Shown here one piece after another: positions 10,239 through 10,826 of a DNA stretch of 34,309 bases (positions are counted from its first letter, which is position 1; each line of letters opens with the position of its first letter). The stretch covers positions 1 to 34,309 of the forward strand of contig DYOU01000014.1 in assembly GCA_020720365.1 (NCBI GenBank), read 5' to 3'. The stretch is from Candidatus Elulimicrobium sp. (GTDB lineage: Bacteria; Omnitrophota; Gorgyraeia; Zapsychrales; Fredricksoniimonadaceae). The notes beneath the pieces were generated by a model that searched no databases, was not told the DNA's origin, and saw only the letters and a list, made by a program, of their open reading frames with translations. The position numbers were made by a program, and so were the translations under genes.

Positions 10239-10505
10239 TTAACGATTGTAGGCGCAATGAATATCACCCGGCCAGGATTGACCGAACTTTTGACGAATAT
10301 TCACGCAATTGAACGACTGCCCCGATACAGTCTTCTGGGGACCAATTCGATTTTCATAAACAAGGCAACAGCTTTTCTTATCCAACCCAATAAACAAATG
10401 TTCACAGGGGTCTTCAAAGGCACCGCAACACGCTCCGCAATGACAGCACAATGATTCCCATTCATCTTCTTTAACGGCCAGCCATTGATTTAACGAATCT
10501 GCCAT
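10239..10505 (-). CDS. YcgN-like (UPF0260) CxxCxxCC metal-binding protein
   Basis: 88 aa from the ATG at 10505. The cysteine pattern follows E. coli YcgN closely: DEWESLC-x2-CGACC (C20, C23, C26, C27), then C34 in PCEHLFIGLDKK, C46-C47 before LVYENR, C67 in SFNCVNIRQ, and CAYNR at the C-terminus. These proteins are thought to chelate iron or zinc; the function is unknown. It is shorter than YcgN (about 150 aa) by lacking the tail. The ORF-track start is a GTG inside the terminator loop and is rejected. The gene begins 18 nt after the U-run of an intrinsic terminator that ends the upstream RNA, so expression may need read-through. Shine-Dalgarno is weak. Confidence 0.75.
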   Translation of the reverse strand: MADSLNQWLAVKEDEWESLCCHCGACCGAFEDPCEHLFIGLDKKSCCLVYENRIGPQKTVSGQSFNCVNIRQKFGQSWPGDIHCAYNR

Positions 10506-10522: not shown

Positions 10523-10559
10523 TAATAAAAAAACGGAGCCCAAACACTACTGGGCTCCC
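10523..10559 (-). terminator. Intrinsic terminator ending the structured RNA
   Basis: Minus strand: stem GGAGCCCA/TGGGCTCC (10558-10551 and 10542-10535) with an 8-nt loop, followed by GTTTTTTTATT. The 5' arm GGGAGCCC (10559-10552) can alternatively pair with GGGTTCCC (10610-10603) near the 3' end of the upstream RNA domain: 8 bp with one G-U. This is a possible antiterminator, the arrangement expected of a transcriptional riboswitch controlling the YcgN-like gene. Confidence 0.8.
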
Positions 10560-10581
10560 AAAAGATAAGTATTATACCATT

Positions 10582-10791
10582 AGCCGATAAAGTGGGGAAC
10601 GGGGGAACCCCAACTCGCTCTTCGGCAACGCAGCCACCATCTCACCCACGTCTCACATCCCCTAACTCGCGCCCAAAAGGGCCGAACCCAAGATGCCACC
10701 AAGGCCTACGGGTCACGCACAGGGAACAACAGGATGAATTAGGTCTGTCGCTTTGCGCCCTTGGCTTTCGCCAAGTTTACCTTTATCGGCT
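10582..10791 (-). ncRNA. Structured RNA with cyclic-di-GMP-I (GEMM-I) riboswitch-like core
   Basis: The 5' part (10791-10737) aligns element by element with the GEMM-I consensus: AAAGGtAAAC, a CTTGGC-GAAA-GCCAAG tetraloop hairpin, GGgCGCAAAGC, and the CCTAA arm expected for the tetraloop receptor. A closing helix of 11 perfect pairs joins AGCCGATAAAG (10791-10781) to CTTTATCGGCT (10592-10582), making a domain of 210 nt, over twice the usual 80-100 nt. A compact alternative 3' boundary (GGGTT...CCCTTTT near 10670) also exists. The receptor partner may be GTAGG near 10701-10697. A promoter puts the 5' end at about 10791 and a terminator follows. RNase P, tmRNA, 6S and SRP RNA signatures were looked for and not seen. 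The ligand assignment is inference from the motif. Confidence 0.62.
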
Positions 10792-10797
10792 TCTTGA

Positions 10798-10826
10798 AAT
10801 ATAGCATCTGAATTCACCAATAACAA
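10798..10826 (-). promoter_or_regulatory. Promoter of the structured RNA
   Basis: Minus strand: TTGTTA (10826-10821, 4 of 6), exactly 17 bp, then TATATT (10803-10798, 5 of 6). The predicted start, about 7 nt downstream, coincides with the first base of the closing helix AGCCGATAAAG. This supports an independent RNA transcription unit separate from trpF, whose stop is 41 nt upstream of the -35 box. Confidence 0.55.

Follow-up and report, generated by a model that had tools for sequence, protein, structure and literature searches.

Riboswitch aptamers are nearly always part of the mRNA that they control. The only precedent found for a stand-alone RNA with a c-di-GMP aptamer is merRNA of Bdellovibrio bacteriovorus, a massively expressed RNA of 445 nt that contains a c-di-GMP riboswitch and has no conserved downstream gene. 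It has been reported from no lineage other than Bdellovibrio, and a role as a c-di-GMP store was proposed (PMC3627812). For the pilM and Cd1 riboswitches, the 3′ strand of the aptamer or a switching strand was described to form a terminator (PMC9262584). A literature text search for Omnitrophota in combination with riboswitch or c-di-GMP, with most subscription journals outside its scope, found no paper.

The stretch of DNA analyzed here (34,309 nt, referred to as the window) contains an RNA locus on its minus strand between trpF (PF00697; 10867..11484, minus) and a gene for an 88-aa YkgJ/YcgN-like cysteine-cluster protein (10242..10505, minus). The name of the latter is based on the first-pass annotation and the sequence; no Pfam match was obtained for the gene at 10505-10242. 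Using cmscan, the RNA was assigned to the c-di-GMP-I (GEMM-I) family RF01051 with 63.1 bits against a gathering score of 35 (E 2.9e-10, model positions 1-87 of 87), a significant hit that bears out the GEMM-I assignment of the first-pass annotation. The aptamer is complete (10621..10791, minus), carries an 88-nt insertion in P3 and scored 134.5 bits with R1, a covariance model built on 64 members of the RNA family that includes the closing helix P0 described below.

The 5′ half of the aptamer is as first described, with the P2 hairpin and its GAAA tetraloop (10760..10775, minus, in the cmscan alignment), GCGCAAAGC and the CCUAA receptor arm. The first-pass annotation had seen about 120 nt of extra sequence behind this half. 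According to the RF01051 alignment, the 3′ half of the aptamer does exist (GUGAGAUGGUGGCUGCGUUGCCGAA; 10645-10621, minus), and the enlargement is the 88-nt insertion in P3, which extends past the tetraloop receptor (10646..10738, minus). The element GGGTTCCC is present as noted, but it belongs to a linker hairpin, P4 (10593..10614, minus), which folding places behind the aptamer and ahead of the closing P0 strand. The early picture of the locus was thus correct for the promoter, the closing helix, the 5′ half and the terminator and had overlooked the 3′ half.

The ligand-contacting positions were identified by alignment to the RF01051 model as G20 (G10781), A47 (A10754) and C92 (C10625), in a numbering which we take to be that of 3IRW. 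Since all three equivalents are canonical, c-di-GMP and not cGAMP is the predicted ligand, and we infer that the RNA binds c-di-GMP. Natural cGAMP-sensing GEMM-Ib riboswitches carry A20; the fold is common to both, whereas the window RNA has G20, and the cGAMP-type A20 was found in 1 of 127 members. A crystal structure of the G20A variant with 3′,3′-cGAMP is available (PMC6274999). The member with A20 is a distant one (L285, G171:C3) in which the C opposite in P0 is also replaced by U; G171 comprises two members, L285 and L246, the latter with G20. In the host genome, four GGDEF domain matches were found, which alone are no proof of c-di-GMP synthesis.

The c-di-GMP-I-GGC model (RF03167) gave 56.6 bits for the window, which is under its gathering threshold of 59, a value passed by three relatives (L082, L083 and L090). 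No other Rfam family was detected inside the window RNA and its relatives (19 members scanned). A two-part aptamer, which had been suggested earlier, does not agree with these results, since Rfam identifies one complete c-di-GMP-I aptamer and nothing else in the extensions. A new variant class, another early suggestion, applies to the architecture (P0, P3 extension and P4) and not to the ligand, in view of the canonical G20, A47 and C92 equivalents. With RF01051 aptamers the window RNA has in common the complete aptamer, the P2 with a GNRA loop, the receptor in P3 and the three ligand-contacting equivalents. It differs in lacking a canonical P1 next to the core, in place of which it has the outer P0, as well as in the hairpin-bearing linker, the P3 extension, a transcription start at P0 and the lack of a conserved regulated gene.

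P0 ties together the two ends of the RNA. In the window it consists of 11 bp formed by the 5′ arm AGCCGAUAAAG (10781..10791, minus) and the 3′ arm CUUUAUCGGCU (10582..10592, minus), which pair as 10791-10781 with 10592-10582; the last four bases of the 5′ arm are A17-A19 of the aptamer and the ligand-contacting G20. Among the members, P0 is paired in 95.8% of the alignment cells and is present in 98% of the minimum-energy folds. Compensatory changes, the check proposed for the closing helix in the first-pass annotation, were seen at 6 of the 12 pairs over 127 members. They amount to 33 cells, compared to 8.5 in shuffles, and 0 of 1,000 shuffles reached this value; the shuffles do not model relatedness, but the two-sided changes fall in different lineages. 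Because the first 64 members were picked for a 5′ arm that matched exactly or nearly so, their P0 varies almost only on the 3′ side; the members found later via R1 are free of this restriction. Variants of the arms are ACCGAU/AUCGGU (L219), GCUGAU/AUCAGC (L278), GCCGAC/GUCGGC (L289) and AAGGG/CCCUU (L230 and others). Judged by this covariation, P0 is a real helix. The pair that covers G20 was GC in 119, GU in 6 and AU in 1 of the 127 members analyzed, the AU case being L285 with its A20.

Covariation was also found in P2, where 5 of the 6 pairs show compensatory changes, and in P3, with the core intact, and G20 and the parts of the GNRA receptor are kept throughout the members. The whole predicted fold is more stable than shuffled sequences (z −3.4; z −2.5 for the RNA without the terminator), with folding energies that are nearest-neighbour only and ignore tertiary contacts. 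Two further observations concern the arms of P0. In L222 and other members of family f10, a second copy of AAGCCGAU is located in the linker and is a possible partner of the 3′ arm AUCGGCUU in a local terminator that would compete with P0. A mimic of the anti-Shine-Dalgarno sequence at the 3′ arm was considered and rejected, as the upstream bases are too variable in the alignment.

Upstream of P0, a sigma-70-like promoter was found with the −35 element TTGTTA (10821..10826, minus), a spacer of 17 nt and the −10 element TATATT (10798..10803, minus), which is extended by an upstream TG (TGCTATATT). The predicted transcription start, 10791 on the minus strand, is the first base of the P0 5′ arm, in agreement with the first description of the locus. 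The lone match in the window is within chance level (1 found, 2.1 expected), but its position is kept in relatives, and its weight comes from these. The −10 element starts 12-11 nt ahead of the RNA in 80 and the −35 element is located at a spacing of 16-18 nt in 112 of 127 members.

The controls for comparison were 28 ordinary GEMM-I taken from same-order genomes. A promoter within 14-9 nt was found in only 2 of these and was absent there in the other 26. The controls also lack P0: the score for a P0-type pairing (12-nt arm against the downstream sequence) was 5.5-13.5 for them, compared to a median of 18 for the members. By these sequence features, the RNA is distinct from ordinary GEMM-I riboswitches. 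In one ordinary GEMM-I (L281, G040:C13), the aptamer 3′ strand GCCGAAAAG can pair with the downstream sequence CUUUUUUCGGC beside a U tract, which resembles the pilM ON-switch.

A total of 128 distinct members was collected, nearly all from Omnitrophota and usually one per genome (two copies in G310), by a selection that favours the known 5′ arm and with P0 included in R1, so that the collection may lack members whose P0 is entirely different. The genomes surveyed are mostly MAGs; that of the window has a size of 1.9 Mb and holds one other GEMM-I, of the ordinary type. Of 55 related genomes searched at the DNA level, 34 contained a match, in most cases a single best one. Among the 40 genomes listed from the same order, 31 had a strong R1 match. 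In 384 genomes of the phylum, about 107 R1 matches of at least 90 bits were obtained in about 106 genomes, all within the class of the window. As a handful of these matches lack P0, roughly a quarter of the 384 genomes carry the RNA.

When 84,980 species genomes were scanned for exact matches to the 5′ signature, 86 contigs were obtained. Almost all of those from Omnitrophota have the promoter and the closing arm CUUUAUCGGC; those from outside the phylum have neither, except for an Auribacterota contig (L148) with a close version of both. The pattern matches in Chloroflexi, Mageeibacillus and Alkaliphilus were set aside, since most of them are ordinary GEMM-I that have neither the promoter nor the CUUUAUCGGC arm; two Chloroflexi sequences reach 75-85 bits with R1. 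A viral match (L188) was rejected as a repetitive, coding-looking stretch without a match from the P0 model. The length of the member RNAs ranges between 125 and 290 nt, with about 210 nt plus the terminator in the window. The distal P3 comprises 18-139 nt (median 74; 117 members), and a linker hairpin of at least 4 bp was found in 75 of 117 members. In L093, L095 and L112, the P3 extension is accompanied by a second large insertion, located between P2 and P3.

The closing strand in the window is followed by an intrinsic terminator (10527..10558, minus) with a 9-bp stem (10558-10535) and a T tract, the order given in the first-pass annotation. Among 124 loci, a hairpin terminator was found behind the RNA in 65 and a U-rich stretch directly past P0 in 100; one or the other is present in 122. 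P0 together with the U tract suggests constant termination. In the window, an extended −10-like sequence, TGGTATAAT (10577-10572, minus), lies downstream of the P0 3′ arm and ahead of the terminator, and a similar one occurs at the same place in the relatives L063 and L068-L073. It was rejected as a second promoter, since the terminator lies directly behind it and no sensible transcript would result. The sequence TCCCAAC follows P0 in 27 of 128 members; here a second palindrome, CCCAACA...TGTTGGG (seen in L290), lies behind P0 in one lineage and is probably a tandem terminator.

The genes flanking the RNA change from lineage to lineage. Over 102 loci, 36 upstream and 40 downstream gene families were counted in 60 neighbourhoods, which are approximate numbers based on a simple ORF script and BLAST clustering. 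TrpF is the neighbour in a minority of lineages. The YkgJ/YcgN-like gene (10505-10242, minus), with its CxxCGACC motif, was found in 32 of 55 related genomes, adjoining the RNA or not, and is a neighbour not conserved together with it. In 85 of 95 loci, representing 32 of 40 families, the downstream gene has the same direction as the RNA, which is above the expectation for a fully neutral position, and in 10 it is convergent, for example a response regulator at a distance of 6 nt (L323) and an alanine racemase at 5 nt (L316). In G014, the gene order trpC-trpF-YkgJ-like is as in relatives, and only the RNA, situated between trpF and the YkgJ-like gene, has the opposite orientation, with the promoter and P0 intact. 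A conserved downstream gene or operon, as found behind the 5′ leader of a cis-regulatory riboswitch, was not seen. The promoter and terminator signals and the shifting neighbours point to a discrete unit without a conserved downstream gene, as described for merRNA. The aptamer falls in RF01051, whereas the whole RNA, by its gene context, does not appear to be a cis-riboswitch.

Sequence comparison thus argues for an own promoter, a start at P0, the helix P0 itself, termination signals, wide conservation and independence from the neighbours, and the suggestion of a GEMM-derived stand-alone RNA in the first-pass annotation is well supported. Our best explanation, held with slightly more doubt than trust, is a stand-alone Omnitrophota RNA gene that contains a c-di-GMP-I aptamer, has its ends tied by P0 and acts as a ligand-gated regulator in trans. 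Because A17-G20 are needed both by P0, where they pair with CUUU, and by the ligand pocket, the inner P0 and the bound ligand should exclude each other. Binding of c-di-GMP would unzip these inner four pairs, while the outer seven would keep the RNA closed. The released strand and the altered junction would then change what the RNA binds, an mRNA or a protein, making it a ligand-gated regulator in trans. In the constrained fold of the window RNA with A17-G20 free, the outer seven pairs stay. The cost of freeing these bases is 4.8 kcal/mol in the window and has a median of 6.1 kcal/mol across members, which a nanomolar ligand should be able to pay; an affinity for c-di-GMP of about 1 nM has been quoted (PMC3627812). 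The exclusion and this opening cost underlie the proposal that c-di-GMP opens the inner P0. That it gates a trans-acting RNA in this way, with the pairing partner covarying with the ligand-binding base, is put forward as a tentative possibility.

A passive sink or store would also explain much of the anatomy, i.e., a very abundant and stable RNA that buffers free c-di-GMP without a partner of its own. The stand-alone aptamer without a conserved downstream gene is the same as in merRNA, and the near-consensus promoter and helix-closed ends suit an abundant, stable RNA. However, a sink needs neither a conserved pair covering the ligand site (G20 with C) nor a near-invariant P0 sequence, and we regard this reading as unlikely. 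The sequence GCCGAU in P0 (121 of 128 members, partly a selection effect) is conserved past the need for pairing, and G20 is covered by P0 in the predicted ground state, as might be expected for a structural or protein-binding RNA that uses the aptamer fold as a scaffold and no longer senses c-di-GMP. The constancy of G20 and of the receptor parts, with P2 and P3 covarying around the intact core, makes such a loss of sensing highly doubtful.

A cis-acting switch, in which P0 and the U tract form a terminator and c-di-GMP alters the read-through into the next gene, has its main point in the excess of codirectional downstream genes, besides the U-rich stretch right behind P0. Pairing of the 3′ arm (UCGGC) with GCCGA, the 3′ strand of the aptamer, is also conceivable and would resemble the pilM ON-switch (PMC9262584). 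This alternative terminator was rejected on L278, where P0 covaries and the GCCGA strand does not follow. Against control in cis are also the 40 downstream families, with some convergent genes within 10 nt, the inverted yet intact RNA of G014 and the second, separate terminator in the window, which is beyond the control of P0; we therefore consider it clearly improbable. Altogether, we would rank a trans-acting or protein-binding role before a passive sink and the sink before cis termination.

What the RNA shares with merRNA is its stand-alone nature, the c-di-GMP riboswitch and the lack of a conserved gene behind it. MerRNA, compared here by its published description, was found by expression and in the Bdellovibrio lineage only; the Omnitrophota RNA (125-290 nt) is known from sequence, is defined by P0 and extends across many families. 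The pilM and Cd1 riboswitches have in common with this RNA a competition between strands of the aptamer and strands downstream of it, beside a U tract. In this RNA, however, the partner of the downstream strand is the 5′ strand of the aptamer, so that the pairing spans the entire aptamer, and the neighbours are not conserved.

The automatic label c-di-GMP-I riboswitch on such loci may point to the wrong regulated gene. If the explanation favoured here is true, second messengers can act through dedicated RNAs, and the idea derived from merRNA, an RNA as a store or regulator of c-di-GMP, could be tested by comparison across a family rather than in a single species.
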